From Sphingopyxis sp. (GTDB lineage: Bacteria; Pseudomonadota; Alphaproteobacteria; Sphingomonadales; Sphingomonadaceae): a stretch of DNA of 64,000 nucleotides. The position numbers and the translations under genes are program-made. The stretch spans positions 1 through 64,000 of the forward strand of contig NZ_JAOZVW010000152.1 of NCBI RefSeq assembly GCF_025869345.1. The letters are read 5' to 3'. Of this stretch, positions 3,912 to 22,261 are shown one piece after another (within the stretch, counting starts at the first letter, position 1; each line of letters begins with the position of its first letter). Under the pieces are notes generated by a model. It was not told where the DNA came from and searched no databases. It worked only from the letters and a program-made list of their open reading frames with translations.

Positions 3912-3935
3912 TGGTTTCTCCGATTCGGACGGGCT

Positions 3936-6900
3936 TCATTTGACGAGCACCAGCAAGTCCCCGCGATCTTCCAGATCGCCTGACTCGAGCGTGCGGTCGA
4001 TCACAGCTTCGATGACCGCCCGAAGCTGCGCGCTCGTAGAGAGGAAGCCGAAGCTTCGCGATACCGCGAGCACGAGATCGTGGCGACCAGCGCCATAGTT
4101 GGCGTTGACGATATCGAGGACCGCCTGCCGGATTTCGGCGGGCGGCAGCATTTCGGGTTTGCGCAGCGTCGGTGAGGTCACGCCCGAGCGATCGCGCACG
4201 ACGAGCGGCTTGCCCGGCCAGACGTAAAAGGGCCCGCCCTCGATCATCCCCTTGCGAACCGCGACGCCGAGCGCCCGGTCGACATGGCCGCGGATACGGC
4301 TTCCGGCGCGCGCGAGGCCCCAGAGCATCCGGATGCGCGCGGCGACTTCGTCGCCATGGATCGGCGACTCGATCTCGACGATCTTCGCGACATAATCGGC
4401 CATCAGCGCGAGCGAGGTCTCATGCGGCTCGGAGGCGCGCATGACGGGGAAGTCGGCCTCGACATAGGCCGAAGGTCGCACCTCGTGCCGCGGCCTGTCA
4501 CCGACGATCGCGGTCACGATATCGGTGTCGCCGACCGTCTCGGTCTCGAAGCTGACGGGCACGGCTGGCGGTGCGCGATAGCCTTCCTCGTCGCGCGCCG
4601 CCCATTCCGCCTTCGCGCCGGCGACCGCCGCCTCGATCTTCGCGAGTTCGGCTTGCGGCCGCAGATACCAATCGGCACTCCAGACGCGGTGGATGATCCA
4701 GTTATGCGCCTCGAGCACCTGCTGGCGCAGCCGGTCGCGGTCGCGCGCCGAACGTGAGGAATGATATTGGGCGCCGTCGCATTCGATCCCGAGAAGGAAG
4801 CGTCCGGGTTTTTCGGGATCCGATATCGCGAGATCGACCCGGAAGCCCGACGCCCCGATCTGGCGCTTCACGTCATAGCCGAGGGCCTGCAACCGCTCGC
4901 AGACCTGGATTTCGAACTCGCTGTCGAAATCCTCGCCCGACACTTCGCCCATCCCGAAATGACCGGTCTCGGCGAAGGTCAGGAAGAGCTTGAGCGCCGC
5001 GACGCCGCGCGCTTTCGTCCGCTCGAGATCGATATCGGCGCCTGTGAAGTTGCAGAAAATCTCGCAGCGCAGCTTGGCGCGCGAGATGAGCACATTGAGA
5101 CGGCGCTCGCCGCCCTCGCCGCTCAGCGGACCGAAGGCGTGAGCGAGATAGCCCTGCTCGGATTTGCCGTAACCGACCGAAATGAAGATGATGTCACGCT
5201 CGTCGCCCTGGATATTCTCCAGATTCTTGACGAAGAAGGGCTCGGCGCCGCCGCCCAGGAAAAACTCCTCGACGTCCGGATTCTCGCGGCGCAGCAGTTC
5301 GAGCTCTTTCAGGATCGCCTGACGCTGCGCGACCGAGAAGGTCGCGACCCCGAGCGACTGCCCGGGATGTTCGCGCGCGTGGCGGATCACCGCCTCGGCG
5401 ACGTGTCGCGCCTCGCGGATGTTGGTCCGCGTGCCACCGCGGTCGTAGTGCGCATCTTTGAGGAGATTGAACTTCAGCCCCATGCCGGCGACCGCGTCGT
5501 AGGGGCTCGGCACGATGAAGAGCTTGTTCTCGTAGAATTCGCGGTTCGACACCGCGATCAGCGACTGGTGCTTCGAGCGATAATGCCAGCTCAGCATGCG
5601 CGAGGGCACGCCCTTGGCGAGGCAGAGCTCGAGGATGCTCTCGGCGTCCTTGGCCTCGATCGGGATCCCCTCGTCGATCTCCTCGCCATCGTCCTCGCCG
5701 GTGAGCTTCTTGAAGAAGGCGGTCGGCGGCAGCTGCTTTTCATCGCCGACGACGACGAGCTGGCCGGCGCGCGCGATGGCACCGAGCGCATCGACGGGCT
5801 CGATTTGGCTCGCTTCGTCCATGACCAGAATATCGAACTCTATCGCGCCGGGCTTGAGGAACTGCGCGACCGAGAGCGGGCTCATCATGAAGACGGGCTT
5901 GAGCTGCTGGATCGCCGGACCCGCCTTGTCGAGCAGGATGCGGATGGGCGCGTGGCGGCGCTTCTTCGCGATCTCGGCGTTGAGGATACCGAGCGGGCCG
6001 ATGCCCGCGGCGCCCGACGGGCGGCCGGCGGCATGCGCCGCGACGATTTGTTCCTGCGCGAGCGCGATCCGCGCCCGGTCGAGCTGGCGGAAGTCGCCGA
6101 CCATGGCATTATGATGATCGCCGTCGAACCCGCGAAGCTCGGGCCAGGCCTCGAACAGGGCCACCCGCAGCACTTCGGCATAGGCGTGCGCATAGGCGCC
6201 GGGCAGCTCGCCAGGCGCAACCGCTCCATCGAGGAGCGCCGCGACGAGGCTCGCGCCGCCCGCATCGGCAAGCGCGCGGGCCCGCGCATGGAAGGCGGTC
6301 CAGCGGCTCAGCCCCTCAAGATTGACGGACCAGCCTTCGAGCCGCGCGGCGAGGCGATCAAGCCCGGTTCCCGACAATGCCTCCGCCCCGAGCGAGCGCT
6401 TCAGATCCAGATGGAGATGCCCGAACAGATCGCGCAGCGATGCATCGAGATTGGGAAGCTGGACCGCGAGGTCGGTACGCGCATGTTCGATCGCGTCGAT
6501 GTCGGCGCCCGCGGCGAGGCGTGACCAGACACTGCCCGGCTGTCCCTCGTGGCGAACGCGCCAGGCGTGGACCGCCTCGAGCCGGTCCCAGTCGGACCGC
6601 TCGCCTTTCCACGCGCTGCCGAACATCGCGCCCGTAGCGCTCGCCTTCTCGAACGCGGTTCGCGCCGCCTGCGCCTCGACCGCTTCGTCGATGAGCGCGA
6701 TCCGCTCGTCCTGCGAGCCGGGCAGTTCGGTCTTCAGATAGGAGCGGAGCAGCGCGAGCTGCGCCCGGTAATTGCTGTCCAGGATGCGGAAGAGACTGGC
6801 GCCCTTGGTCACGACCGCGAGGCGGATCGCCGACCAGTCCGCGCCAAGACCCGCGGCATTGACCTTGGCTTCGGCGTCGCCCCAGAGCGCGGCGAGCCGC

Positions 6901-8690
6901 CGGCCCGCCGCGATCAACTCGGCGGCGCGCTCCGCATCGGACGACCAGAGCGGATCGCTCATCGCCGCAAGATCGGTGCCCGCGGGGATCGGGGTCACGG
7001 ACAGCTCGCCGAGTGCGACGGTGAGATCCGAGAAGAGCAAAGCCTCGTCGGTGCCAAGTTCGCGCGCCGCGACGCCCGCGACCGATCGCACGCGCGCGAG
7101 CGCCTCCGCGGCGATCCGGATCCGCGCGCCGAGCGCTTCGCGTTCGACGGGATCGAGCGGCCCGCAGTGAACGCCGATCCAGGGATCCGCGGCCGGCTCG
7201 CCCAGCGCCTTCGCGCGCTCGGCGACTTCCGCCGCAAGCGCCTGAACCTCGGCGGCGCGCTGCCGCGACCAGCTTTCGGCCTTATCCAGCGGATAGGCTG
7301 CCATGCCCACACGGTCCCCCACGGACGCGAGACGTCCTAGGATCGCGTGAGGCGAGAGCTCGGAGGGTGCGAGCGGCGTGTGGAGACGGGCGGCGAAGCG
7401 ATTGAGATCGTCGCCCGTCGCCCCGAGCTTGTCGACAACGGTGAGGTCGCCGCGCGCGCCGCGATGCTGGGCATCGCGGGTGCGCTTGAGCTCTTCGAGG
7501 AGCGAGCGCTTGTTCGCCTTGTTGGAGTGAAGCTCGAGCGTCGGCGGCCCGAGCCCGACCTGCTGGAGCCGGCGGTGGACGACTTCGAGCGCCGCCATCT
7601 TCTCGGCGACGAACAGCACTTTCTTGCCGCGCGCGACGGCGGCGGCGATGATGTTGGTGATCGTCTGCGACTTGCCGGTTCCGGGCGGCCCCTTGACGAC
7701 GAGCGACCGCCCGCCGGCGGCCTCGGCGATGACCACGGTCTGCGAGCTGTCGGCATCGACGACATGATGAAGTTCGATCGGACGAATGGCGTCGTCGATC
7801 CGGACGTCGTCGGCGACGATCGGCTCGGTCGCGGGAAAGCCGTCGCGCAGCAGTGCGGCGATGGTCGCCTTCGCGTCGATTGCGCCGTCCGCCGGCCAAT
7901 TGTCGGGATCGAGATCGCGGTACATCAGGAATTTGGAGAAGGAAAAGAAGCCGAGGACCATGGCGTCGGGCAGCACTTCCCAGCGCGCCTGGCTCGACAC
8001 TGTAGCAGCGACCCGCGCGCAATAGGCGGCGAGATCGACTTCGTCCTCGTCCTTGAAATCCTCGATGACGAGCCCGAACTCGACCCTCATCTTCGCCTGC
8101 AGCGTGAGGTTCGGCGACGGGGGTTCGTCGCGCCCCTTGAGCTTGAACCGGTCGGCCGCGCTGCTGCGATCGAGGCGGACGGGCAGCAGCACGAGCGGGG
8201 CGTGGCGCGCGATGTCCGAGGTGTCGCTGTCGTACCAGCGCAGCAACCCGATCGCGAGGTAGAGTATATTGACTCCCTGCTCCTGTTCGAGAGTCTGGGC
8301 GTCGTACCAGATGTCGAAGAGCCGCTTCTGCAGCCCTTCGGAGGTGAGGCGCGTCTGGAGGCGGAGATCCCTGTGCCGCCCCGCGACGCCGCGCGCATCG
8401 ACGACATCCTCGTCGGGCTGCGGGATGCCGCCGGTGACATCGTCGTCGGGATCGAGTTCGGCGCGCTCTTCCTCACTGAGCTTGACGCCGGGGAGAAAGC
8501 TCAAGGCCTTGCCGTCATCGAGGAGCCTGAACACCTCGGTCGATTTCTCGTCGACGATTTCAATCGCGCGATTGTTTCGCGTTCGAAGCGGAGTGTTAAG
8601 CAGACGATTGCGCGTCGACAGATCGAGAAGCGCGTGACGCTCCTTGAGCAGGCGGTCGCGGATCGACGCGAGCGGTTCCATATCGGCCAT
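3936..8690 (-). CDS. DUF4011-SF1 helicase-REase-DUF3320 giant protein
   Basis: A 1584-residue multidomain protein. The N-terminal part (about 10-250) resembles DUF4011. An SF1/UPF1-like helicase follows, with Walker A GPPGTGKS near residues 336-343 and motif II VMDEASQIEP near 958; its C-terminal motifs include SWHYRSKH and QGDERDIIFIS. A Vsr/MTES_1575-type endonuclease-like domain lies near 1260-1370, with FRVDLAI and GIECDGAQYHSS, consistent with a D...ExD metal site. A DUF3320-like segment follows around 1440-1500. This domain order occurs repeatedly in bacterial defence islands, where it is thought to unwind and cut foreign DNA. It lies upstream of yhaO/yhaN on the same strand. Its own promoter is probably in the 365 bp before it. 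Confidence 0.88.
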   Translation of the reverse strand: MADMEPLASIRDRLLKERHALLDLSTRNRLLNTPLRTRNNRAIEIVDEKSTEVFRLLDDGKALSFLPGVKLSEEERAELDPDDDVTGGIPQPDEDVVDARGVAGRHRDLRLQTRLTSEGLQKRLFDIWYDAQTLEQEQGVNILYLAIGLLRWYDSDTSDIARHAPLVLLPVRLDRSSAADRFKLKGRDEPPSPNLTLQAKMRVEFGLVIEDFKDEDEVDLAAYCARVAATVSSQARWEVLPDAMVLGFFSFSKFLMYRDLDPDNWPADGAIDAKATIAALLRDGFPATEPIVADDVRIDDAIRPIELHHVVDADSSQTVVIAEAAGGRSLVVKGPPGTGKSQTITNIIAAAVARGKKVLFVAEKMAALEVVHRRLQQVGLGPPTLELHSNKANKRSLLEELKRTRDAQHRGARGDLTVVDKLGATGDDLNRFAARLHTPLAPSELSPHAILGRLASVGDRVGMAAYPLDKAESWSRQRAAEVQALAAEVAERAKALGEPAADPWIGVHCGPLDPVEREALGARIRIAAEALARVRSVAGVAARELGTDEALLFSDLTVALGELSVTPIPAGTDLAAMSDPLWSSDAERAAELIAAGRRLAALWGDAEAKVNAAGLGADWSAIRLAVVTKGASLFRILDSNYRAQLALLRSYLKTELPGSQDERIALIDEAVEAQAARTAFEKASATGAMFGSAWKGERSDWDRLEAVHAWRVRHEGQPGSVWSRLAAGADIDAIEHARTDLAVQLPNLDASLRDLFGHLHLDLKRSLGAEALSGTGLDRLAARLEGWSVNLEGLSRWTAFHARARALADAGGASLVAALLDGAVAPGELPGAYAHAYAEVLRVALFEAWPELRGFDGDHHNAMVGDFRQLDRARIALAQEQIVAAHAAGRPSGAAGIGPLGILNAEIAKKRRHAPIRILLDKAGPAIQQLKPVFMMSPLSVAQFLKPGAIEFDILVMDEASQIEPVDALGAIARAGQLVVVGDEKQLPPTAFFKKLTGEDDGEEIDEGIPIEAKDAESILELCLAKGVPSRMLSWHYRSKHQSLIAVSNREFYENKLFIVPSPYDAVAGMGLKFNLLKDAHYDRGGTRTNIREARHVAEAVIRHAREHPGQSLGVATFSVAQRQAILKELELLRRENPDVEEFFLGGGAEPFFVKNLENIQGDERDIIFISVGYGKSEQGYLAHAFGPLSGEGGERRLNVLISRAKLRCEIFCNFTGADIDLERTKARGVAALKLFLTFAETGHFGMGEVSGEDFDSEFEIQVCERLQALGYDVKRQIGASGFRVDLAISDPEKPGRFLLGIECDGAQYHSSRSARDRDRLRQQVLEAHNWIIHRVWSADWYLRPQAELAKIEAAVAGAKAEWAARDEEGYRAPPAVPVSFETETVGDTDIVTAIVGDRPRHEVRPSAYVEADFPVMRASEPHETSLALMADYVAKIVEIESPIHGDEVAARIRMLWGLARAGSRIRGHVDRALGVAVRKGMIEGGPFYVWPGKPLVVRDRSGVTSPTLRKPEMLPPAEIRQAVLDIVNANYGAGRHDLVLAVSRSFGFLSTSAQLRAVIEAVIDRTLESGDLEDRGDLLVLVK

Positions 8691-9055
8691 TGATTCTCTT
8701 CCCCCTATACAAGGGCTACACCGTCAGCGACGGTCACGCCAAGCGCCGAAAGTCAAACTTTGTCTCGGTTAGACAAGTAAATCAGACATTTTCTTAGATT
8801 CTGCCTGAGCTATCAGCCACATCGGATCATTTTTTCGTTCTAGAGTTTGCGCAACGGCCTCGCCAGCGTGGTGACAGCGGTAACGATACCGAGATGAGCG
8901 ACGAAGGGCTGGGGCAGAAAGGAGAGTTATGACTACGCCTCCGAACTGTACCCGGCTCGACTACTGTCGCAGCCCGCCGTCGCCGCTTCTGCATAGCATC
9001 GAGCTCAGCGAGATTCCCCGCAACAAGGAAATCACGGTCCAAGCGGGAATGACTT
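8691..9055 (-). other. Intergenic region upstream of the giant helicase
   Basis: This is a relatively AT-rich 365-bp gap between the helicase start and the stop of the JAB-E1 gene. It contains a short inverted repeat at 8760-8776. A plus-strand reading frame from 8929 has a good Shine-Dalgarno (aaaggag) before its ATG, but it runs into the antisense of the JAB-E1 tail and has no recognisable domain, so I do not call it a gene. Confidence 0.5.
8760..8776. promoter_or_regulatory. Inverted repeat, possible operator
   Basis: TTGTCT and AGACAA arms (6 bp each) are separated by a 5-bp loop (CGGTT), 70-87 bp upstream of the large helicase start. The spot is AT-rich compared with the rest of the window. 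It could be an operator for the helicase gene. No regulator is known for it. Confidence 0.3.
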
Positions 9056-10489
9056 TCATTCGATCAACGGCAGTCGCGCATTGTCGCCACGAGCAAGTCG
9101 TCCGCCGGAGCCACAGTCAGGACATCCCTTGCCACGCCGAGGATCAACGAAACGTAGGGTCCGCTTAAGCGGTCGGCCCTGGATCGTTCCACCGAATGCA
9201 TCGTCGTTCACCAGCCCGGTAATGTAGAACAGGAAGTCATCAGCGGCTTGCGAGGCGCTCAGAGCATTTAGGGTAATGACGCTCGGAGCGGGCGAGTCAT
9301 CCTCATCGACGTAGCGCTGGCCCGCGCGCATTTCCTGCGAAATGCTCTCATCGCGAAGGCGCGCCTGGCTGACGGCCTGGTTGCACAGCATGCAACCCTT
9401 GGCGGGGGTGACCGGCCTCGTCGTCGTGTGGACATCGATCACGGCACCGGTCTCGGGATCGACCTGGATGCGCGTCCCCATCTGAACGCCCGGGATCAGA
9501 TACTGATGAACCAGCGCATTAAACAACCGGCGCGCCCTGTGCCCATCGGCAGCGAGGAAGATGTAGTCACAGTCCTTGATCGCCTCGGCGACTTCAGGCT
9601 TCTCCATGACCGAGAAGTGACGCTCGACACACGCCTTGCGGTTGGCGCGGCGGATCACGCGCCGCGAAAGATCGACCTTCTTGGTGGCGAGGCGCCTGCC
9701 GAGCTTGCGAAGCCATTCCGGACGACGTTTGTCGACCAGCCAGGCCATCGCATCCCATGATGTCGCATCGACGAGGCGCGGCACGTTTGTGGGATCGACG
9801 CGGTCGGGGTCGACGAGGACGAACTGTCCGACACCGAGCCGTGCGAGCAGTTCGACAAGTAGCGAGCCAACGCCGCCCAGTCCGATGATCGCCACACGGC
9901 TGCCTGCCAGTATCGCCTGCCCTTCGACGCCGAACAACCGGACCTGCCGGTCGAAACGGCCGGCATCCCCCACAGCCATGCGCTCCGGTCGGGGTCGCAG
10001 GATCTTTCGCTTTGCGCCGACCACAACAAGGCGATCGAGGGTCAACCGCTCTCCGCCGGGAAACCAGATATCGCCTGCGACTGCATTGGGCGCGAAGACA
10101 AGCGAACCGACGGGCATGCCTTCGACGAGATCCAGCAGCGCCGGAAAGCCGCGTTCGTGGGATTCGATGTCCACGCTCGAAAAGGCGACGCTGTCGTTGC
10201 CGCCGTGGTTGTGCACGGCGAGATAGACGAGCTTCTCGTCGCGGCAGAGGCGCGCCTGCTTCGCGATGAAGGGCGCAAGCAACATTCGGTACCCGCGGTT
10301 TCCAGGCACCCAGTCCTTGCCTTCTTCGGCGAGAACGAGCGACCGCGCGGTGAGCACCGGCCCGGACCGGGTCTGCAGCAGCCCGGCCTGGATGACCGCA
10401 CCATGCTCGTCCCCGTCACCGGGAAAAAGGTGGGCGGCGAGTTCTTCATACATCGATCGCGGCATCCGCAGTTCGCAGCGTGTTTTCAT
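9056..10489 (-). CDS. JAB deubiquitinase-like and E1 (ThiF) fusion
   Basis: A 477-residue fusion of a JAB/JAMM isopeptidase and an E1-type adenylating domain. The JAB half (about 8-160) has E28, H93-x-H95 and then S104-x-x-D107; the gap between the histidines and the serine is eight residues instead of the usual seven. The E1 half has GLGGVGS at 203-209, D227 and D229 in VLVDPDRVD, and DNA-coded CxxC pairs at C366/C369 and C456/C459 that would form the usual structural zinc site. The start is the ATG at 10489. It overlaps the stop of the E2-like gene by 4 bp, and the longer frame upstream of it is only antisense or out-of-frame code. The family activates a ubiquitin-like protein (E1) and trims or removes it (JAB). 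Its partners are the two genes just upstream. Confidence 0.9.
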   Translation of the reverse strand: MKTRCELRMPRSMYEELAAHLFPGDGDEHGAVIQAGLLQTRSGPVLTARSLVLAEEGKDWVPGNRGYRMLLAPFIAKQARLCRDEKLVYLAVHNHGGNDSVAFSSVDIESHERGFPALLDLVEGMPVGSLVFAPNAVAGDIWFPGGERLTLDRLVVVGAKRKILRPRPERMAVGDAGRFDRQVRLFGVEGQAILAGSRVAIIGLGGVGSLLVELLARLGVGQFVLVDPDRVDPTNVPRLVDATSWDAMAWLVDKRRPEWLRKLGRRLATKKVDLSRRVIRRANRKACVERHFSVMEKPEVAEAIKDCDYIFLAADGHRARRLFNALVHQYLIPGVQMGTRIQVDPETGAVIDVHTTTRPVTPAKGCMLCNQAVSQARLRDESISQEMRAGQRYVDEDDSPAPSVITLNALSASQAADDFLFYITGLVNDDAFGGTIQGRPLKRTLRFVDPRRGKGCPDCGSGGRLARGDNARLPLIE

Positions 10490-10905
10490 CGTTCGGTCAT
10501 CCACTTCATGACGGAGAGGAGTTTCAGCAGCGGAGATTCCTGGATCCAGACCGACTGGTTCCGCTGTCGGCGGGAGATCATCACGGCTGGCCGCTGGGGA
10601 AGGCCGGGCGTGTCGGCTGCCGGAAAGTGATTGCCACCGTGGATCGGCGGCGAGAGAGCCCGGCCATCGGCAAAGCTCAGGTCGGGGCGGACCCAGAAGG
10701 GATAGGTGTCGTCTTCCGGACATGCGTTGGACAGGAAGAAGCCGACCCAGGTGGTTTCCTGTGCGAACGGCGCGTCGAGGGGAATATCCTCGATCAGCAC
10801 ATGCGCACCGCCGCAGGGAGACGGATAAATGTGGAGCGGGAGCTGCGCGAATTGCTCGCGCAGCTCCGCGATGGCAGCCGTGACGCCGGCGCGCATCTCG
10901 CTCAT
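10486..10905 (-). CDS. E2/UBC-like protein of the multi-ubiquitin operon
   Basis: A 139-residue protein between the multi-Ubl and JAB-E1 genes, matching the position of prokaryotic E2 family genes. An E2-like flap is visible (TYPFW near residues 67-71, then SPPIHGGNHF near 85-94), followed by a helix with SVWIQESPLLKLL. The only cysteines are C31 and C62, both before the flap. The position after the HPN-like segment, where a classical E2 has its catalytic Cys, holds none. It is therefore either a member of a divergent E2 group that uses another residue or a non-catalytic scaffold. It starts 2 bp after the Ubl stop and overlaps the JAB-E1 start by 4 bp. The E2 call rests on weak motifs plus strong context. 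Confidence 0.7.
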   Translation of the reverse strand: MSEMRAGVTAAIAELREQFAQLPLHIYPSPCGGAHVLIEDIPLDAPFAQETTWVGFFLSNACPEDDTYPFWVRPDLSFADGRALSPPIHGGNHFPAADTPGLPQRPAVMISRRQRNQSVWIQESPLLKLLSVMKWMTER

Positions 10906-10907
10906 CC

Positions 10908-11591
10908 TTAGCTGTCTTCGTGATTGTCGACGGCGCCGAACTTTTCGCCGCCGCGGATGAACACACGATCGGTATCGCCGATGACGCGCGCCGGGACGCC
11001 TTCGCCCTCGAGATCGAGGATGAAGTCGAGCTGGATCGCAACGCCCTGGGCGATCGCGGCCGTCTTGATAGCGAGACCATCGTGCCAGCCGCGAGAGATC
11101 TTCACCGGCTTGGTGTTGACCTTGATCCGCACCTCGGGGCGCTTCACAACGTCGAGGCGCTCGGCCCCCGCCGCTTCAAGATCGACCTCGCCCTCGTCGT
11201 CGATGATGAGATCCTCGCCCGGCAGCGACATGCTGAACACTTCGTCGGCCGCGATACGGTGGATGCGGCGGAGTTCGCTTTCGGCAAAGCTGCGCTGCCC
11301 CCATTCGTAGCCGCGGCCCTCGACGGTGAGGCGAAAGATGCGATCGCCGCGGAACGCACGAAACGCCTTGTCGCCATCGCCGAAATCGATCTTCTCGTCG
11401 AGGCCCACCGAGGTGGTGCCGCGATCCTTCAGTTCGATCAGGATGTGCTGGTCGGCCGGATCGTGATCCGAAATCTGCAGCACATCTTCGCCATCGATGC
11501 GACGATCGTCGGTGCGATAGGTTTCGCTGTTGACGAGGAAGCTGAAACGGCCCGCACGGCTCGCTTCGTTGTTTTTCTCTTCAGTATTCAT
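10908..11591 (-). CDS. Multi-ubiquitin (tandem beta-grasp) protein
   Basis: A 227-residue protein of three tandem ubiquitin-like beta-grasp units, roughly residues 15-90, 86-152 and 154-220. Each opens with a strand such as FSFLVN or VRIKVNTKPV and contains a helix. It matches the bacterial multiubiquitin domain family, whose genes sit beside E2-like, JAB and E1 genes, exactly as here. The last unit ends FIRGGEKF: an Arg-Gly-Gly (213-215) is followed by 12 further residues, so cleavage by the neighbouring JAB could expose a ubiquitin-like GG end. Shine-Dalgarno-like GAGG lies before the ATG. It sits 102 bp after the helicase fusion gene and may share its transcript or have its own promoter. 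Confidence 0.85.
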   Translation of the reverse strand: MNTEEKNNEASRAGRFSFLVNSETYRTDDRRIDGEDVLQISDHDPADQHILIELKDRGTTSVGLDEKIDFGDGDKAFRAFRGDRIFRLTVEGRGYEWGQRSFAESELRRIHRIAADEVFSMSLPGEDLIIDDEGEVDLEAAGAERLDVVKRPEVRIKVNTKPVKISRGWHDGLAIKTAAIAQGVAIQLDFILDLEGEGVPARVIGDTDRVFIRGGEKFGAVDNHEDS

Positions 11592-11693
11592 GTTAAATTA
11601 CCTCATGCCGTTCGGGCCGCGACGGAATGCCGTGGCCGACAGGAGGTTGATCGCCGGGGTCGGCGAACCCGGAAGTCGGTCTTTGAAAAAAAT

Positions 11694-14600
11694 TCAGGCG
11701 GCAGGCACCGGCGCCGGGCAAAGGAAGAAGTAGCGGCATCGCGGGCAGGACCAGTCGCTCGGCTTGGGGGGAAACTCCCCTTTGTCGATTGCTGCGACGA
11801 TGGTCCGGCTGGTTTCGAGCCTGGCGCCTTTCTTCCGGTCGGTCTGTTCTATGGGCGTTGTCGCGGCGTCCGCCAGATGAAAGGTTTCGACGCGGCCAGA
11901 CATTCCGGCGCCCCGATTGACGGCTTCCAGCAGCAGGCTGTTTCCGATCTTGTCCGCTTCGCCCTTACTCTGCTTGCCAGCCCGAATTGTACGATAAATT
12001 GTCCCCGGCCCGTCGCCGATTATCTGATCGACATGCAGCTCGACCGTTCGTCCGCCGATCTCGACGGATAATTTCGCATCGCCTTCCATGCTCCCCGCAG
12101 CGAGGACAGGCAGAAGCCCGGCCAGCATGGCTTCCGTCAGGTTGCGGTAAGAGGCTTCGAAGACGTGTCCCACCAATGGGCTCGTGGACCACGCCTCCTC
12201 GAAGATGGCCGAGACCTGCGCCGCGTCAAGCGCAACGTCGCTTTCACGAGCCGCATCGAGGACCGCCAGCAGGCAGCGATGAGCCTCGAGATAGGCACTT
12301 TCGGGTGCATCACCGCGGAGGGCGACAACGCGCTCATAATAGAAGCGACGCGGGCAATCGTCGTAGCGCTCGATGTCGCGGTGCCTCAGCTTTGCGGGCG
12401 GCGGCGGCACCGGCAGCGGGGACGGAGCGACAACCGGGTAGATTCTGGCAATCCTCTGACAATCGGCCGAGGCCGGCAGTGCAAGTCCCGGCCGCTCGAG
12501 GAATGCCGACGGGTTCGAATTCTTGCCCGCGCGCCTAGCCGCGCGATAAAGTCGCAGATGCGTCCGCGCGCGCGACATGGCTACGAAAAAGAGGCATTCC
12601 TCTTCGGCAATGTGACTGTCGGTTTCGGCGCTGTCGTCGATCAGGCCTGCGGGCGGAGGGCAACGGGGTCGCCGGTCGGCAGCCGGGATCGTGCCAGCGT
12701 AGAGGCAGGGCAAATGGACCGCCTCGAACTCAAGCCCCTTGCTTCCATGTATCGTAAGCAGCTGAACGCCGTCGAGGCTGGAAAGCTCGTCGGGGAGACG
12801 TCTCAACTCCCTGTCATCGGCAAGCAAAACCATATGCCGGACGCGGTCCAAGCCGCGCTTGATGGGGGACCTGCTGCCGCGAAGCGGCATTGACCGCATC
12901 GCTTCGACAAGCTGGCGGACTGCCACGCGCCGCATCTCGTCACGCGGTGTCTGACCGGCCATCAGGCGGACGACATAGTCGCTTCGCTCGAACAGATACT
13001 CCATGAGGACGAACCACGGAGTGTGCCCCGCATGAAATCCCTGCAGGTGATTTCCGAGGCGCTCGAGGCCCATACGTGCGGGCACCGATAACACCGCCAA
13101 GGTCTCCGCATCGACAATGAGTTCGGTGACCGGTCGCTTCGTCTCACGCGCGATCCCCAGAAGCTTGACGACGTCGTCGAGCGGAACGCCATATTCGGGA
13201 AAGCCGGCAACGCGCAGGAGCGGGGCGTCGGCCCCGCCCACGATCGCGAGCAGCGAAAGAAGATCGCGTATTTCAGGTCGGTCGAAGAGCGGGCCAAGAT
13301 AGAGGACTGGAATCCCGCGCGCTTCCAGTTCCTCGCCGACGCGCCCGAGAATGCCGTTGCTTCTGGCCAATATGGCTTGGTCTCTCAGCGCAGTTCCGCA
13401 CTTCTCCAGCGCGCGGATTGCGCCGGCGAGCTCGTCCATTTCCGCATCGGTGTCTGCCGCCGCGGAAATGCTTGGAGGCGTGCCCGACTCGTCTCGGTTC
13501 GTTTCAAGCTCGAGCGGAAGCGCATAATCCGACACTTGCATGTCGTTGCCGAATTCTATGAAGCGGCTGACGATCGGCTTGGTCGAGCGATAGTTTCGGC
13601 CCAGTCTGCGCCGGAGCGAAACCGGATAGTGCTTTTTGAACTGCGCCATGTTCGCGGTCGATGCGCCGCGAAAGCGATAGATGGATTGCCTCGCATCCCC
13701 CACGACCCACAGGTTGTTTCCTTCGCCGGCGAGACCCTTGATCAGGACGGCGCTGGCGCGATTGATATCCTGATATTCGTCGACGTGGATCCATTTGAAA
13801 CGCGCTCGAAGGATCTTGGCAAACTCAGCATCATCGCGAAGTTTCAGAGCCGGCAGCATGACAAGGTCGCCGTAATCGACAGCGTGAAGCTGATCGAGCT
13901 TGGCCTGATAATGTTTATAGACCAGCGCGACTTCCACGGCCTTCGCCGCGTCGAGCGCGGCGTCGGCGTCGCCTTCCTCCGCCGCCTTCTTCGCCATTGC
14001 CTCGGCCTTCTCAGCATAGTCTGCCGGGCTGGCGAGTTCGTCCTTGGCGCGGGAGATGGCGCGAAAGATGTCGCGCAGCGCAAGCGCCGGCTCGAACAGG
14101 TTCTGCAGATGGACGATGGGAAGCGTCGGCAGGCTGTCTTCCAGCAAATGGATGGCTTCGCTGCCGTCGATCAGCCTCGGGTCCTGCCCCTTGCCGAAAG
14201 TCTCGTGATATTTGCGAAGCAGCTCGAGACCGAAGGCATGAAAGGTCCCTGTCCAGATATTCGCCGCTGCGGCACCCGCCGCCTTTTCGACACGATCGGC
14301 GATCTCTCCCGCAGCCTTGTTGGAAAAGGTCAGAGCCAGTATCTCGTCGGCCTGCGCCTCCTTGTTCTTGAGAAGTCGAGATATCCGCTCCACCAGCGTT
14401 TTCGTCTTGCCGGTGCCGGGACCCGCCTCAAGCAGGAACGCCTCGCCGCGGTGAACGATCGCCTCCTCCTGAAATTGATCCGGAGGAGATGAAGGGCGGG
14501 AGGCGTTGCCCAGAGCCGCATTCATGTCCGGAAGCAGCAACGCATCGGTGAGCTGCTGGAAGACAGTTTCGCGGCGAATGCCAAGCCGGTCCGCTATGGC

Positions 14601-15056
14601 CGCCGCGCGCTCGCCGGCCATGAACAATTGTCGGGCAAGCGCCCTGGGCAACAGGAGCTCCCGTGCGAAGACATTGGCCTGCGCTTCGCGGCGTTCCTTG
14701 ATGCCATAGGCTTCAACTCTCTGGGCCGGGTCACCCGCGCCCGGTGCGTTGTAGCCGTCGGTCACAGTCGGGCGCGGCGCCTCATGGACTGTGAAGTGGC
14801 CGACTTCATGCGCGATCACTTCTTCCCGCGCCGCGGGTTCGAGTGCATTGCTCACCAGAACGAGGCCGAATGTTCGATCGAGAACGCCGATCGATCCGGC
14901 CAGTCCCGGATCGTCCGGATCGAGCTCTTCGACCGTCAATTCACATTGTTCGATTGCGCGCTTGACCACCTCAGCAGCGTGCAGTTCGGTGAAGCCCGGG
15001 TCGACTTTGAGGCGAAGTTCGGCCGCCGCTCGCCTGATGGCGTCGAAATTTTCCAC
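11694..15056 (-). CDS. IrrE peptidase-UvrD helicase-AddB-type nuclease fusion
   Basis: A 1120-residue fusion. Residues 1-180 form an ImmA/IrrE (M78) metallopeptidase with H83-E-V-G-H87, a third ligand likely at E124 (REAQANVFA), and the typical trailing helix-turn-helix. A UvrD/Rep helicase follows, with Walker A GPGTGKT (K217), DEYQD at 426-430 and GDARQSIYRFRG near 453-464. The C-terminus (about 930-1120) looks like an AddB/Cas4-like PD-(D/E)XK domain with one early Cys in YDDCPRRF and then C1104-x2-C1107-x5-C1113, the pattern of an Fe-S cluster. The catalytic core reads IYRTIRAGK where DYKTG-like sequence is expected, so it may be cleavage-dead. The start is GTG, abutting the preceding stop. 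IrrE-type enzymes cleave XRE repressors, and an XRE-like protein is encoded immediately upstream. Confidence 0.87.
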   Translation of the reverse strand: MENFDAIRRAAAELRLKVDPGFTELHAAEVVKRAIEQCELTVEELDPDDPGLAGSIGVLDRTFGLVLVSNALEPAAREEVIAHEVGHFTVHEAPRPTVTDGYNAPGAGDPAQRVEAYGIKERREAQANVFARELLLPRALARQLFMAGERAAAIADRLGIRRETVFQQLTDALLLPDMNAALGNASRPSSPPDQFQEEAIVHRGEAFLLEAGPGTGKTKTLVERISRLLKNKEAQADEILALTFSNKAAGEIADRVEKAAGAAAANIWTGTFHAFGLELLRKYHETFGKGQDPRLIDGSEAIHLLEDSLPTLPIVHLQNLFEPALALRDIFRAISRAKDELASPADYAEKAEAMAKKAAEEGDADAALDAAKAVEVALVYKHYQAKLDQLHAVDYGDLVMLPALKLRDDAEFAKILRARFKWIHVDEYQDINRASAVLIKGLAGEGNNLWVVGDARQSIYRFRGASTANMAQFKKHYPVSLRRRLGRNYRSTKPIVSRFIEFGNDMQVSDYALPLELETNRDESGTPPSISAAADTDAEMDELAGAIRALEKCGTALRDQAILARSNGILGRVGEELEARGIPVLYLGPLFDRPEIRDLLSLLAIVGGADAPLLRVAGFPEYGVPLDDVVKLLGIARETKRPVTELIVDAETLAVLSVPARMGLERLGNHLQGFHAGHTPWFVLMEYLFERSDYVVRLMAGQTPRDEMRRVAVRQLVEAMRSMPLRGSRSPIKRGLDRVRHMVLLADDRELRRLPDELSSLDGVQLLTIHGSKGLEFEAVHLPCLYAGTIPAADRRPRCPPPAGLIDDSAETDSHIAEEECLFFVAMSRARTHLRLYRAARRAGKNSNPSAFLERPGLALPASADCQRIARIYPVVAPSPLPVPPPPAKLRHRDIERYDDCPRRFYYERVVALRGDAPESAYLEAHRCLLAVLDAARESDVALDAAQVSAIFEEAWSTSPLVGHVFEASYRNLTEAMLAGLLPVLAAGSMEGDAKLSVEIGGRTVELHVDQIIGDGPGTIYRTIRAGKQSKGEADKIGNSLLLEAVNRGAGMSGRVETFHLADAATTPIEQTDRKKGARLETSRTIVAAIDKGEFPPKPSDWSCPRCRYFFLCPAPVPAA

Positions 15057-15611
15057 CTATTCTGCCAACGTCAGCCACTTCTCGCGCAACTCTGCGCTCA
15101 TCGGCGTCATTCGTACTGCGTTTGCGAAGGATATCTTGGCAAGAGCCTGAGGGGTCTGGCTCGATCGATACTCCGTATTCGCCAAGGATGGCTCGAGATC
15201 CAAGAATCCGAACAGGGTCCCGGTCTCGACCCGCAGATAGTGCGCAAGATCGCCGATGAGGATGAGCGGGATCGTGGCTGCATCGATCATCCGGCGGCAG
15301 ATTTGTCGCAGAATCGCGATCGGAAGATCGAGTTGCTGGGCAAGACTCTTCAATTCCTGCGGGGACTTGCCTTGGAAGGGATCGCAAATAGCAGCCCCCT
15401 GCCAAAGGCGCGACAGATCAGCAGCAGGTAGCGGGACATCGACCTGCGCCTCGGACTCCTCATCGATATGCCATTCCAGAGCGAAGGCCGCGATTTCCAT
15501 GGCATACTCCGGATGCGCGGCCATCGCGAGACGCACCGCTTCCGGCGATACGTCGCCGTCGACACCCAGCTCCAGCAGGATGTTCGTCAATTCCTCAGAA
15601 CGGTCGGTCAT
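15057..15611 (-). CDS. XRE-like regulator preceding the IrrE-helicase fusion
   Basis: A 184-residue protein with no clear named family. Residues about 85-137 (SLAQQLDLPIAILRQI, then TIPLILIGDLAHYLRV) fit the spacing of an XRE-type helix-turn-helix seen in small regulators paired with sigma-like proteins. The N-terminus is acidic. The start overlaps the stop of the sigma-like gene (ATGA), and the stop abuts the GTG of the IrrE fusion, so the three genes are coupled. By analogy with ImmR/ImmA and DdrO/IrrE, this could be the repressor or the peptidase substrate. It could equally be an anti-sigma-like partner of the upstream protein. Confidence 0.6.
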   Translation of the reverse strand: MTDRSEELTNILLELGVDGDVSPEAVRLAMAAHPEYAMEIAAFALEWHIDEESEAQVDVPLPAADLSRLWQGAAICDPFQGKSPQELKSLAQQLDLPIAILRQICRRMIDAATIPLILIGDLAHYLRVETGTLFGFLDLEPSLANTEYRSSQTPQALAKISFANAVRMTPMSAELREKWLTLAE

Positions 15612-16402
15612 TGTCCCGACTCCATATGTTTGGTGATCGCTTCGGTCGCGGCCTTCAGATGAATGCGTACCATTCGCCCGGTAATCTTCATGAGCTTTTC
15701 CGCCGTCACTTCATCCGGATCGATCGATTCCTCCTTGAGTCCCAGATAATGCACCGCGACCATGGCGGTGAACTGCTTTTCAGTCAGCAGAGGCCGCAAC
15801 CGGGTCAACTCCACCTTTATCTCGGCCTCGGACATACGGCTGCCGTCTCGCCGGAAAAGGATCGCGCCCATCACATCCTCGGCGCTGTCATCGCTCTCGG
15901 CCGGCACAAGCGCTTCGGCCGAGACTTCCGAACCATCGATGCGTTTGAAATGACGAATGGCGTCGATAGTCAGCGTGCGAATTGCCATGGCAAAACGGCA
16001 TTCGAAGATATCGAGAACGTCGGTCCCGCCAACAAGACGGACCAGCAATTCGTCGCGGACGCGCTCGCGAACGTCGCGCCTGCGGTGTTCGGGGATACCG
16101 CCTATCCGTCCTCGCACCTGCCGATCGACCCGTTCCAGCAGGGCAGTCACGATGGCCTCATAGCTTGAGCTCGGCCCGTTCGGCCGAAAATGACGGGCGA
16201 AGTGCAAAAGGCATTCGCTCGCGATGGCATTATCTTGAGCGAGATTTGCGAGCGGCCGCATATAGGCTGCGGCAATTCCAGTCTCGATTTCTGCGGGTCG
16301 GACATACAGCGCTCCATTCTTTTTGCGCCGCCTGGTAAGCGGGCGAACGAGCGATGCGGCTCCGCCAGCTTCAGACGGGCCGTGCATCGGTAGGATCGCC
16401 AT
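15608..16402 (-). CDS. Sigma-70-like regulator
   Basis: A 264-residue protein resembling a degenerate sigma-70 family member. A region-2-like stretch (about 125-175) contains RDVRERVRDELLVRLV and AIRTLTIDAIRHFKR. A region-4-like stretch lies near the end (LLTEKQFTAMVAVHYLG, then TGRMVRIHLKAATEAI). The N-terminal 50 residues are Arg/Lys-rich and look disordered. It is the first gene of the coupled trio with the XRE-like and IrrE-helicase genes. No convincing Shine-Dalgarno precedes the first ATG, so a later ATG (16387) is possible. It may direct transcription of the island or be a DNA-binding relic of a sigma factor. Confidence 0.6.
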   Translation of the reverse strand: MAILPMHGPSEAGGAASLVRPLTRRRKKNGALYVRPAEIETGIAAAYMRPLANLAQDNAIASECLLHFARHFRPNGPSSSYEAIVTALLERVDRQVRGRIGGIPEHRRRDVRERVRDELLVRLVGGTDVLDIFECRFAMAIRTLTIDAIRHFKRIDGSEVSAEALVPAESDDSAEDVMGAILFRRDGSRMSEAEIKVELTRLRPLLTEKQFTAMVAVHYLGLKEESIDPDEVTAEKLMKITGRMVRIHLKAATEAITKHMESGQ

Positions 16403-17135
16403 CGGAGGAATTTCCCCAACCCGGAAATGAATGTTTCATTTTTGTTCCACTCGCCCCATTCGAATGCATATTTTGCATCCACCGCGGCGACTGACCAGCA
16501 GAAAAAGGTCCGTTACAAATTCAAAGGACATGAGAGGTAGCGATAGGTCGCCTCTCGACTTGAATCAGTCGCGAATTTTTCTGGCGGCTCCTAACAGGAG
16601 ATTATGCAGCGCCAAGGGCAGCTATAGCGTTCCGCCGCTCCAAAACCTGCCGGTCTGCAATCGGCCAGTCGTACGCGTTTCCAGCGACGGGTCACGGTCT
16701 GGAGTGGTTCCACGCGAAGAGGCATCGCGGTATGCGCAACATTAGTGGCCGCGCTTCCGGCAATATTGCGTTCTTGACGAGCCCGATCCGTGTCAACGGT
16801 CCAGCGTCCCGCTAGGCGCTACGACCCTCGCGCAGATCGGCCAGATCAAGTGTCGGACGATTCTCGATCACCTGCGCCCCCCGCTCATACGTCCGCTACG
16901 GACGTGGCTACTGAGGGCCTGCGCCCCCGCCTCCCTGCGCGCCTAACGCGCTCAAAAGGAAACATCGTTCGATACTCCGGTCGTAGGGCGATCGTCGGAC
17001 CGACGATCCTAACCGACATATTCCACCGCTTCCATCAACCCATGTTGGTATCGGATATCGGGCGAACCGGACTTGAGGGATGCGGTTTCTAAAGCGGTAT
17101 GGGCAACCTGGCGCTGCTGCTGGCGTTGAATTCTT
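16403..17135. other. Divergent intergenic region, 733 bp
   Basis: This gap separates the start of the defence-type island (minus strand) from the UDG-like gene (plus strand). I see no supportable protein gene. It should hold the promoters of both flanking units. The AT-rich part next to the sigma-like start contains a near-match to the alphaproteobacterial LexA site at 16433-16447. Confidence 0.5.
16433..16447. promoter_or_regulatory. Near-consensus LexA-like box
   Basis: GTTT-N7-GTTC, one mismatch from the alphaproteobacterial LexA consensus GTTC-N7-GTTC, about 30-45 bp upstream of the sigma-like start. It is AT-rich between the half-sites, as real boxes often are. With one mismatch in an eight-base consensus, chance is a real alternative. 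Confidence 0.3.
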
Positions 17136-17741
17136 ATGGACATGCAACATGCCTCGGCGAAACCGATCGATCGTCTGCTCGATGAAATCGCAAGATGCGA
17201 CGCATGTTCGGCGCAGCTTTCTCACGGCGTCCGGCCGGTTCTCCAAGCGTCGGCGACCGCACGCCTGCTGATTGCGAGCCAGGCACCGGGTTCAAAAGTC
17301 CATAAGTCAGGCATTCCCTTTTCCGACCGGTCGGGTGACCGGCTGCGCGAATGGACCGGACTCTCATCGGACAAATTTTACGATCCGGCTCTGGTAGCGA
17401 TTGTGCCGATGGGGTTTTGTTACCCAGGACGGGGCCAGGCTGGCGACGCGCCGCCGCGGCCGGAATGCGCGCCGCTATGGCGTGACCGCCTTCTGAGCGC
17501 GCTTTCGGCCGTTCGCCTGACGCTCCTGGTGGGCAGCTATGCACAGAACGCCGTGCTCGGCCTCGGAACGGTCGGCGACCGCGTCCGCCGTTATCGCGAC
17601 TTCCTGCCTCACTATTTTCCGCTTCCGCACCCCTCGTGGCGGTCGCAGGTCTGGATGCGGCAAAATCCATGGTTCGAGATCGAGCTTCTCCCGGAACTGC
17701 GGCGGTGCGTCACCGCGGCCCTGCCGACGGACGGCGAGTGA
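17136..17741 (+). CDS. Uracil-DNA glycosylase family protein
   Basis: A 201-residue member of the UDG superfamily of the small single-domain type. It has the CDACS cysteine motif near residues 21-25, the nucleotide-pocket loop SQAPGSKVHKSGIPFSD near 50-66, and HPSW near 170-173. Family members remove uracil or related damaged bases, but this subgroup is poorly characterised and its activity is not shown by sequence alone. It is followed at once by a DUF488 gene on the same strand. An alternative ATG lies 6 bp downstream. Confidence 0.8.
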   Translation: MDMQHASAKPIDRLLDEIARCDACSAQLSHGVRPVLQASATARLLIASQAPGSKVHKSGIPFSDRSGDRLREWTGLSSDKFYDPALVAIVPMGFCYPGRGQAGDAPPRPECAPLWRDRLLSALSAVRLTLLVGSYAQNAVLGLGTVGDRVRRYRDFLPHYFPLPHPSWRSQVWMRQNPWFEIELLPELRRCVTAALPTDGE

Positions 17742-17749
17742 GCCGCGCG

Positions 17750-18280
17750 ATGTTACCAATCTTCACGATCGGCCATTCGACACGGCCGATCGAAACCTTC
17801 ATTGCTATGCTGCGCGATGCCGGAGTGACGATGCTGGCGGACGTGCGCTCGATTCCGAAGTCGCGGACGAATCCTGACTATAATCTCGCCACGCTGCCCG
17901 AGACCTTGGCGCCCTATCAAATCGGGCACATTCATATCGCCGAACTCGGCGGCCGCCGCCCGCGGCAGCCCGGGGTCGATCCGGCGCTTAATGCCTTCTG
18001 GCAGAACCAGAGCTTCCGCAATTATGCCGACTATGCCTTCTCGAAGTCCTTCGGGACCGGCTATCGGCGTCTCCTCGATCTCAGCGCAAAGCAGCGCTGC
18101 GCGATCATGTGCGCTGAAGCTGTCTGGTGGCGATGCCATCGGCGGATCATCGGGGATTATCTTCTAAGCGACGGACGCGAGGTGCTGCATTTGATGGCGC
18201 CGGGGCGAACCGAGCGCGCGAAGCTTACCGCCGCTGCACGCCCGGAAGGTGGCCATCTTGTTTATCCGCCGGAACGATGA
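17750..18280 (+). CDS. DUF488 family protein
   Basis: A 176-residue DUF488 protein. Diagnostic motifs are FTIGHSTR at the N-terminus, LADVRSIPKSRTNP near 33-46, and CAEAVWWRCHRRII near 122-135. The last resembles the Cys/His cluster common to the family, whose biochemical role is unknown. The start is taken as the ATG at 17750. A GTG at 17738 overlapping the stop of the UDG gene would extend it by four residues. The close spacing suggests co-transcription with the UDG-like gene. Confidence 0.82.
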   Translation: MLPIFTIGHSTRPIETFIAMLRDAGVTMLADVRSIPKSRTNPDYNLATLPETLAPYQIGHIHIAELGGRRPRQPGVDPALNAFWQNQSFRNYADYAFSKSFGTGYRRLLDLSAKQRCAIMCAEAVWWRCHRRIIGDYLLSDGREVLHLMAPGRTERAKLTAAARPEGGHLVYPPER

Positions 18281-18593
18281 TCATCCGCGGTACTACGAAG
18301 AGCGGGCTTGCTGGCCTGGGGCCGGAGGCGCGATGGTGACTTGGCGATGGGGGTTGAATTGCGCGACTGCAATCTTGGGAGTGCCTGTTGGGACGACCAA
18401 CTGCGGCAACGCCTGCTTCCTTTTTATCGGTGCTCCAAACCGGTCCGACCGCAAGCGGCCAACTGCCGCGGTGGGTTGTGCTCGCCGCATTGCGCTCGTT
18501 CGACGGCGGCAGCGGGGAGCGCGCACCCGACCCGTGATCGGCAACAACGTCGTGGTGCCGTGCGGAGGCTTGCTGTCGACGGCGGAAAGATGA
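18281..18593. other. Convergent intergenic gap
   Basis: This 313-bp gap lies between the DUF488 gene (plus) and the GNAT gene (minus). Short open frames are present but none has a domain, a ribosome site or composition that supports a gene. I see no strong hairpin with a T-tract. Confidence 0.4.
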
Positions 18594-19502
18594 TCATCGT
18601 GTTGGTGCGCTATCGCTGCTCCTGCCTTCGATGATGCGAACGAACCGGTAGCTCTTCTGCTCGAATTTCAGCGACCGGAAGAAATTATGGGCATTGTTGA
18701 CCATGATGTCGCTCATCGCCTCGATCTCACGGCATCCTGCCTTGGCGATCGCGCCTTCGGCAGCGGACAGCAACGCGGTCCCGACCCCGCTGCGCCGCTC
18801 GGGCTTGTCGACGAGCAGGAGCGTGATGCGGCCGATTGGCCCGCGCTGGATCGTCGGCACGACCGCCCAGGCACAGCAACCGATCACCGCGCCTTGCTCG
18901 GCGACCAGCAATTGTCCCCGGGATTTGCGCAGCAACTCCATATTCGCGGTAACGCGAGCCTTGTCGGCTTTGGGTCCGGCCAGTTGATTCATCAGCTTCG
19001 CAACCGGAGCGGCATCGGCGGTCTTCGCCGGACGCACGACGAGGTTTTTCTCGGGCGGGGGAGGCTCTTTCGGGACGATGCGCAGTGCGGGTTTCGCACG
19101 TGCTGGACGGTCGGCCGGTAGCGGTTCTCTGCGGGCCGGCGCTTTGGGCACCTCGACCTGGCTGCGGCGTGGGGATGACGATGTTCTCCGACGCATCGGG
19201 CCTTCGTCATCAGGGCGATCAGCAACAGCTATTTTCTTCTTGAGCGTCTTGGCATCGGGTGTCGTCTCGGCCGAAAGCTTCCAGCTGCTGAGCGTGCCAC
19301 CGCGCAAATATTCCTCGACCTCCTCAGCCGACGCGGTGAGGCCAGCCTCGCCAATCCCGAGCAATGGCTTTCCGGACGCGTTGGTCAGACCGTATTTGCC
19401 GTAATCGCCGACCCCGGGCGTGCGCTTGCGCGAGCGGACGAGCTTCATCCCGCGATGCTCGGCCATTGCGCGGAGTTCGTCAGGTCCGATCTCTTCCTTC
19501 AT
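18594..19502 (-). CDS. GNAT acetyltransferase with N-terminal extension
   Basis: A 302-residue protein. The first 75 residues form a small conserved-looking module (IGPDELRAMAEHRG, then KYGLTNASGKPLLGIG). A basic Pro/Arg-rich linker (about 100-155) follows. The C-terminal half (about 155-295) is a GNAT domain with the acetyl-CoA loop RRSGVGTALL and the late NNAHNFFRSLKFEQKSYRF. Substrate unknown. The ATG at 19502 is preferred because the upstream part of the frame is not domain-like. It sits beside KTSC, Ku and LigD genes, so it may modify a DNA-bound or repair protein. That is inferred from location alone. Confidence 0.8.
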   Translation of the reverse strand: MKEEIGPDELRAMAEHRGMKLVRSRKRTPGVGDYGKYGLTNASGKPLLGIGEAGLTASAEEVEEYLRGGTLSSWKLSAETTPDAKTLKKKIAVADRPDDEGPMRRRTSSSPRRSQVEVPKAPARREPLPADRPARAKPALRIVPKEPPPPEKNLVVRPAKTADAAPVAKLMNQLAGPKADKARVTANMELLRKSRGQLLVAEQGAVIGCCAWAVVPTIQRGPIGRITLLLVDKPERRSGVGTALLSAAEGAIAKAGCREIEAMSDIMVNNAHNFFRSLKFEQKSYRFVRIIEGRSSDSAPTR

Positions 19503-19564
19503 TGCCGTGCGCTCGCCATGCGGGTTGCTGGGGAACATCGCGCCGGTGAATGCGCTGTGTTGCC

Positions 19565-19807: not shown

Positions 19808-19838
19808 CTGGGTCGGCATGTCGGGCTCGCCCGTACGC

Positions 19839-21493: not shown

Positions 21494-21518
21494 ACGCGAT
21501 ACAGTCTTAGTGTGCAGA

Positions 21519-22252: not shown

Positions 22253-22261
22253 CTTGCGGTC

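Follow-up and report, generated by a model that had tools for sequence, protein, structure and literature searches.

Results

Gene content of the locus

We analysed a 64,000-nucleotide stretch of Sphingopyxis sp. DNA (contig NZ_JAOZVW010000152.1, positions 1 to 64,000; hereafter the window) and focus on six minus-strand genes at 9056-16402, which a first-pass annotation made from the sequence alone had described as a sigma-like/XRE/IrrE-helicase trio joined to a multi-ubiquitin conjugation set. The annotated layout agrees with our coordinates: all six genes run in one direction with small overlaps, and the sole sizeable gap is one of 102 bp at 11592-11693. The trio, or cassette, consists of a sigma-like gene (15608-16402, 264 amino acids, aa), an XRE-like gene (15057-15611, 184 aa) that overlaps it by 4 bp, and an IrrE-UvrD gene (11694-15056, 1120 aa, GTG start) that directly abuts the latter. 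Beyond the 102-bp gap lies the ubiquitin-like (Ubl) operon: a Multi_ubiq gene encoding a multi-ubiquitin-like (polyUbl) protein (10908-11591, 227 aa), then, after 2 bp, an E2-like gene (10486-10905, 139 aa), which overlaps by 4 bp a gene for a JAB peptidase-E1 fusion (9056-10489, 477 aa). L and G numbers below denote loci and genomes.

The sigma-like protein has no Pfam match above cut-off. Its AlphaFold2 model (nine sequences, 246 aa; predicted local distance difference test, pLDDT, 75) finds E. coli sigmaE as its best PDB match in Foldseek (1or7, E 4.8e-3, prob 1.00), with AlgU and SigH among the further matches; region 2 matches 5or5 (prob 0.96), and region 4 aligns with 3vep at 1.4 A over 66 columns (prob 0.99). 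No Foldseek match reaches E < 1e-3, and all best matches are sigma factors. An Aminobacter relative carries a Sigma70_r4_2 domain (33.8 bits vs. a cut-off of 25.7). With moderate confidence, the protein is predicted to have the region 2 plus region 4 fold of an extracytoplasmic function (ECF)-type sigma factor. In L047, L048, L049 and L055, genes for a DUF6088 protein and an AbiEii-type nucleotidyltransferase lie directly upstream of the sigma gene and perhaps share an operon with the trio.

Searches with tblastn recover the second gene of the cassette in 32 of 34 helicase loci. Its helix-rich product has no Pfam match above cut-off. In the model (pLDDT 76), helices at about residues 84-137 form a core like that of a helix-turn-helix (HTH) protein, and a stretch at the C-terminus is conserved. 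The protein is a candidate protease substrate or sigma partner; the name XRE-like is provisional.

The 1120-aa protein combines an IrrE domain (residues ~1-176; Peptidase_M78, 6.8e-8), a UvrD/PcrA helicase (195-843; UvrD, 1.9e-62) and a degenerate PD-(D/E)XK domain (894-1114; PDDEXK_1, 1.8e-6). PcrA is the best solved relative of the helicase family profile (1.2e-98). All 32 intact helicases that were aligned have the HExxH motif and a Glu further on, the Lys of Walker A, the Asp-Glu of Walker B and a set of four cysteines in the C-terminal part; the S. alkalisoli gene, whose reading frame is broken, was left out of these counts. The core motif of PD-(D/E)XK nucleases has an Asp ahead of the Lys. 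In an alignment by eye to this motif, the Asp is absent from all 32, and the Lys is replaced in 28; the four that retain it are G580, P. koreensis, G571 and L025. The IrrE and helicase parts of the annotated IrrE-UvrD-nuclease fusion stand, whereas an active nuclease is disfavoured, and the domain looks inactive. An IrrE protease joined to a DNA-engaging motor and to a nuclease that looks inactive suggests a sensor. The PADLOC models for GajB and DRT helicases match the UvrD core of this protein. We considered and discarded Gabija: no GajA was among the matches listed for the six genes (for the helicase, the best 25 of 54), and GajB matches only the UvrD core. In E. coli genomes, 1757 bases of the helicase gene had no DNA match. 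IMG/VR yielded four loci, where one 5.1-kb contig bears the start of a family helicase; these were left out of the analysis.

Pfam detects Multi_ubiq (PF14452, 2.4e-13) in three stretches of the 227-aa protein, in keeping with the three beta-grasp units noted at first pass, and ThiF (1.6e-27) in the 477-aa protein; it gives no match above cut-off for the E2-like protein and no JAB match for JAB-E1. Across eight JAB-E1 proteins, H93-x-H95...S104-x-x-D107 and GLGG-x-GS are invariant, so that the JAB and E1 motifs of the first-pass annotation, like its HExxH and helicase motifs, are conserved in aligned relatives. The best solved relative of JAB-E1 is Citrobacter BubCD (phmmer 4e-20), with the likeness confined to the E1 part at residues 199-420. 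For a seven-sequence polyUbl profile it is 9cd2, a multi-ubiquitin domain protein (8e-35), and BubA matches that profile weakly (E 0.09). Nine aligned sequences of the E2-like, or RWD-like, protein share no invariant Cys; W53, P63, D66, Y68, P69, S111 and R112 are among the invariant residues, and a PDB profile search gave no match. A conserved C-terminal Gly-Gly in the polyUbl proteins was dropped as a general feature, being limited to the three proteins from loci of the window's type among seven aligned. JAB-E1 was found in 3 of 60 genomes searched, the window's own included.

The operon fits a type 6e/Bub-related conjugation operon, judging from gene order and sequence relatives. In the type 6e operon of Iyer, Burroughs and Aravind (2006, PMC1779556), a polyUbl protein with 1-3 Ub-like domains, a Cys-less E2/RWD-like protein and a JAB-E1 fusion are encoded in the same order as the three genes of the window. 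The words "sigma" and "UvrD" are absent from the main text of that paper, and the trio does not appear in the parts compared. We rejected a Bil assignment for the window operon: the four-protein set is not there, the polyUbl and E2-like proteins match no PADLOC model, and the best 25 of 32 PADLOC matches of JAB-E1 are all E1-E2 models over the E1 part, none of them Bil.

The trio is linked to Ubl operons of several types

Loci were gathered by tblastn of the sigma and helicase proteins on plasmids, by profile searches of genomes and by a genome-contig scan. Plasmids contributed 21 records, 5 from the sigma search and 16 hand-picked for diversity from 88 helicase records (45 of the 88 are from Acinetobacter, 2 of which were examined). 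The other loci comprise 5/5 other phylum-sample genomes, 2/2 other class-sample genomes and at least 8 from the genome-contig scan. L027-L029, in which the contig ends within the helicase, were left out, and the 34 judged loci include the window.

In 33 of the 34 loci having sequence beyond the helicase, the helicase adjoins a Ubl operon, which bears out the first-pass proposal that the two halves belong together. In 32 loci, spanning alpha- and gammaproteobacteria and a cyanobacterium, the operon directly follows the helicase gene on the same strand; in a betaproteobacterium, Robbsia (L051), it is divergent. Similarity searches identify the complete trio in 31 loci, 30 of which have the Ubl operon immediately downstream; the sole intact trio seen without one is in Pseudomonas koreensis (L015), with IS66-type genes in the operon's place. 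L050 has an IS256 element upstream, and only a sigma remnant was found there. Many of the helicase loci sit on plasmids.

The attached operons differ in type. Three (the window, Mesorhizobium huakuii L011 and G580 L041) have the polyUbl/E2-like/JAB-E1 arrangement, which we call type A; 13 are polyUbl/DUF6791-E1/DUF6527 operons, seven combine a longer polyUbl gene with E1 and DUF6527, and one carries an extra phosphotransferase gene (L053). The remaining nine (type C) are BilABCD-type operons with the same cassette attached. PADLOC matches all four Bil genes in three of them and single genes in two, the other four being recognised by tblastn; its scores for cassette-linked Bil proteins are 154-210 (BilA), 167-212 (BilB), 206-234 (BilC) and 545-578 bits (BilD). 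In a helicase tree of 27 rows, the type A sequences group together with full support, and the sister of this clade is Aminobacter, which is of Bil type. Bradyrhizobium japonicum, also of Bil type, nests within the polyUbl clade. The five operon labels, one of them "unknown", need five changes on this tree, the least possible being four. The tree thus indicates that cassette and operon type were exchanged at least twice.

We also asked how often each half occurs by itself. In a phylum sample of 398 genomes, the helicase is found in the window's genome and five others, all of which carry a Ubl operon. If the halves were independent, the chance that all five other trio genomes carry one would be roughly 5e-8, with adjacency not counted; this estimate uses 16 operon-bearing genomes, an undercount that includes G580, whose operon was found via its trio. 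The co-occurrence beyond chance for which the first-pass annotation had proposed a test is seen in this sample. PF14452 occurs in 12 of the 398 genomes, four of which have the trio, at a threshold that missed the divergent polyUbl proteins of the window's genome and of G580.

The Ubl half is often found without the trio. Three genomes of the sample with DUF7665 (BilB family) have a Bil-like operon and no trio within ~9 kb by tblastn. Within the same genus, G020 has polyUbl and a JAB-E1 that is 44-46% identical, and no trio was found there. Of the eight trio-less genomes among the 12 with PF14452, four have HTH and IrrE genes near the operon (G443, G460, G655 and, weakly, G039, where the HTH is below cut-off and IrrE was recognised by eye from HExxH). 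G579, also without the trio, has a GHKL ATPase and a winged HTH (wHTH)-like protein upstream of its polyUbl operon; near the polyUbl operons of G577 and G527 no gene was recognised as a regulator. In G561 a contig edge lies by the polyUbl operon, yet an IrrE-like match is present. At L103, which lacks the trio, a GHKL ATPase and a wHTH-like protein (CapK+CapS-like) are encoded at 7167-8876, upstream of a polyUbl/DUF6791-E1/DUF6527 operon.

G001, of the same genus, was rejected as a further independent Ubl half. It is 99% identical to window positions 53-10884, and the match ends inside the E2-like gene, leaving a remnant; other DNA replaces the trio, polyUbl and the E2 start, and an IS66-like transposase, read from the sequence, lies ~4 kb on. 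The halves are thus independent from the side of the Ubl operon, which does not need the trio, and not from the side of the trio, which appears to need the Ubl half. In part, the outcome that the first-pass annotation had named as a refutation, halves that occur independently of each other, is thus observed.

A promoter-like motif is common to both units

The gaps between helicase and Ubl operon hold CTT(T/A)CCGGTT-N14-CGATTA-like sites, and 21 of 23 non-redundant gaps score above all 100 shuffles with leave-one-out matrices. When whole loci were scanned on both strands with matrices from dissimilar gaps, the gap site ranked first or second in 25 of 31 loci, and the gap site and a site at the sigma gene were the top two in 23 of 31; these counts include several near copies. 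The gap site of Sphingorhabdus ranks 11 and R. phaseoli has no site; the sigma gene is interrupted or unrecognisable in both.

The position of the second site differs with operon type: most Bil-type loci have it a short way upstream of sigma, and most polyUbl loci have it within the sigma coding sequence, ~180 bp ahead of where the XRE-like gene starts. It is embedded in the sigma gene in L015, L021, L023-L029, L040, L042-L044, L047-L049, L052-L056 and L058-L060. The codon before [YF]R ends in T in 18 of 18 sigma genes with both site and conserved peptide (29 examined), with the encoded residue varying; the product of the genes' own third-position T frequencies is 2e-12, or 1e-8 for the 13 without near copies, for a count that is not independent of the motif and in a setting where the site-less B. 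quebecense also has T.

In the window, putative promoter P2 lies in the 102-bp gap before the Ubl operon (11650-11674, minus strand; TTCCGGGTT-N12-CGAT) and putative promoter P1 at the start of the sigma gene (16401-16426, minus strand). These are the exactly two matches of the type-A pattern TTCCGGGTT-N12-14-CGAT in the window's 4.0-Mb genome, with one match in the reversed control. G580 has the two homologous sites and one elsewhere, and the trio-less G001 and G020 have zero matches. That the pattern keeps to homologous places in the window's genome and G580 is otherwise hard to explain. A matrix built without type-A loci also places P2 first in the 64-kb window. A loose genome-wide pattern with two mismatches was set aside as too unspecific (36 matches vs. 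11 in the reversed control), and a sigma-70 promoter scan of 8600-16700 found none. The first-pass annotation had proposed a check for a single transcript across the 102-bp gap. With a promoter-like site inside that gap, a pair of transcription units under matching promoters seems a better fit than one six-gene transcript. Since P1 overlaps the annotated start codon, translation of the sigma gene may start at M6 (16387) instead.

Several observations weigh against reading the trio as a sigma-factor switch. In just 4 of 23 representatives does the stretch of 200 bp before the sigma gene score above every shuffle, and the intragenic second site overlaps a conserved peptide of the sigma protein, where constraint may act on DNA and protein at once. 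The exact type-A pattern is missing from M. huakuii, the remaining type-A locus, whose gap site ranks third and whose sigma-upstream site ranks 59th. The gap sites of Aminobacter and L026 also rank third, and that of G580 ranks 17th with a non-type-A matrix. In the window itself, P2 leads by a small margin (16.5 vs. 16.0 bits), P1 is only seventh in the matrix scan, and its overlap with the annotated start codon counts against it too. The start of the motif was set by eye on the gaps themselves, and the four sites that the type-A pattern finds are the ones from which it was derived. A terminator scan rated the terminator-like stem at the helicase end no better than chance. Evolution of the sigma gene is fast: searching 288 other genomes with a single sequence brought up one relative, and the gene is not recognisable in L051, nor in L057, where neither small gene is, although genes of similar size stand at those places. 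Finally, of the sigma/XRE pair proposed at first pass, the sigma member is supported by its predicted fold and by the Aminobacter relative, and the XRE member is not confirmed: the fold search gives it no significant match, so its role is a guess.

Discussion

On balance we favour the reading in which the first three genes form an exchangeable controller module and the last three its target, switched by the sigma factor via P1 and P2. Its helicase and its inactive nuclease-like domain would let the IrrE-UvrD protein engage DNA that is damaged or foreign. The XRE-like protein probably keeps the sigma factor or the promoters silent; its cleavage by the DNA-bound IrrE protease would free the sigma factor, as in PprI/DdrO and CapP/CapH. 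The ECF-like sigma factor would then direct RNA polymerase to P1, at its own gene, and to P2, giving positive feedback on the trio and switching on the Ubl operon, and the conjugation operon would tag proteins, most likely as antiphage defence. Parts of this scheme differ in strength. A linked module with matching promoter-like sites is well supported by the computed linkage, the module exchange and the common motif; the computation also shows intact zinc and helicase motifs and, at moderate strength, a sigma-like fold. The DNA-triggered protease switch is moderately supported. That the sigma factor reads the motif, that DNA is the signal, that the XRE-like protein is cleaved and that the outcome is defence are inferences. 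The antiphage role of the window operon is indirectly supported: a damage or phage response, as suggested at first pass, is a better founded proposal now because 9 of 33 loci carry BilABCD-type operons. We would give an even chance to the broader proposal that this is a controller of immune operons of a new class: an IrrE protease coupled to a helicase would read DNA and free a dedicated sigma factor, and the cassette would be swapped among Bil, Bub-like and other Ubl operons, each with a matching promoter.

To our knowledge, the PprI/IrrE-DdrO pair of Deinococcus has no helicase fusion, sigma factor or Ubl operon. It does provide a precedent for the protease step, PprI being an IrrE protease stimulated by single-stranded DNA (ssDNA) to cleave the HTH repressor DdrO (PMC10904395); CapP, likewise stimulated by ssDNA, is a second precedent (PMC13373217). 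CapH+CapP, found beside operons of the cyclic-oligonucleotide-based antiphage signalling system (CBASS) and Bub operons, resembles the cassette in its IrrE-type zinc protease and its place next to a Ubl or immune operon, and DNA damage would be expected to control both; the partner in the cassette has HTH-like helices in its model. It differs in being a separate small protease with an HTH repressor and no sigma factor, where the cassette has a helicase-fused protease and a sigma-like third gene; activation by the cassette would run via a sigma factor with matching promoter sites and not by simple derepression. CapK+CapS, an ssDNA-activated two-gene controller beside Bub operons, is like the cassette in position (PMC13373217), but consists of a kinase and STAS-wHTH proteins with neither sigma factor nor protease. 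Among the 544 Bub operons in the same paper, CapW or CapH+CapP stands beside 219 and CapK+CapS beside 59, and Bil is listed there among known antiphage pathways.

Control by IrrE next to polyUbl operons thus has forerunners in the literature, where we did not find the sigma factor, the helicase fusion, the matching promoters or a link to Bil. As the first-pass annotation had supposed, no description of the link between the trio and a Ubl set came up among the titles and abstract openings listed in our literature search; three papers outside it (Gong 2025, Ye 2026 and Chambers 2024) could hold one.

The promoter motif common to both units and the intact helicase residues are compatible with a different division of labour, in which the IrrE-helicase is itself an effector that unwinds or blocks invading DNA, the Ubl operon is a second weapon of one composite defence system, and the sigma factor merely co-induces both. 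UvrD-like helicases do occur in defence systems, and the GajB and DRT helicase models match the core of this one. Those GajB matches, however, reflect the UvrD core, with no GajA for the six genes among the matches listed; the nuclease Asp is lost in all 32 intact members; and trio-less polyUbl operons often have small regulators nearby, so that the place of the trio suggests regulation. We regard an effector role as unlikely, though the strongest of the competing accounts.

It is far less probable that XRE and IrrE form a toxin-antitoxin-like addiction module stabilising a mobile Ubl cassette, as proposed for COG2856 genes beside multiubiquitin genes in Synechocystis. Its attraction is that 70% of multiubiquitin (PF14452) proteins adjoin COG2856 loci, an arrangement interpreted as toxin-antitoxin (PMC4963859), and that many helicase loci are plasmid-borne. 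Yet such a module would leave the sigma factor, the helicase fusion and the common motif unexplained, and homologues of IrrE act as proteases that cut HTH repressors in response to ssDNA (PMC10904395). Least credible, at a very small probability, is that two unrelated defence-island neighbours came to be adjacent by chance. Defence genes do cluster, polyUbl operons are often trio-less, and G020 has the Ubl half alone; chance adjacency is nevertheless rejected, since 33 of 34 loci are linked and 32 share gene order and strand, and the common promoter motif speaks against it as well.

Bacterial Ubl pathways are a young field, and to the question of when they are switched on this locus family offers a testable answer: a dedicated sigma factor, two defined promoter-like sites and a protease-helicase able, perhaps, to read DNA damage. 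The reading as a controller module would add a sigma-based controller to CapW, CapH+CapP and CapK+CapS. The presence of the cassette both before antiphage BilABCD operons and before polyUbl operons whose function is unknown argues that the latter serve the same purpose, and the promoter motif could help to find further members.

Flanking genes

Just downstream of the six genes, 3936-8690 (minus strand) encodes a DUF4011/MTES_1575 helicase-nuclease that matches PADLOC PDC-S37 with 1809 bits and NCBIfam ProA with 1497.5 bits at a cut-off of 1500, and is thus a candidate for an antiphage role. None of the 20 best motif sites in the window stands before this ProA-like gene, and for this reason it was not counted in the regulon. 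Next to it, an SMC-like ATPase (154-2796, minus strand) and a calcineurin-like phosphoesterase (2793-3911, minus strand) make up an SbcCD-like pair; GajA models match at most the first 76 residues of the SMC-like protein. Exonuclease/ATPase gene pairs are likewise annotated near the cassette in L011, L045, L046, L050 and L054. On the other side of the six genes, uracil-DNA glycosylase, DUF488, GNAT, Ku, Exo_endo_phos and LigD proteins are encoded at 17136-24984, a non-homologous end-joining repair neighbourhood. Farther on, 33096-36425 (minus strand) encodes a STAND-type regulator of 1109 aa that has Trans_reg_C and NB-ARC domains.

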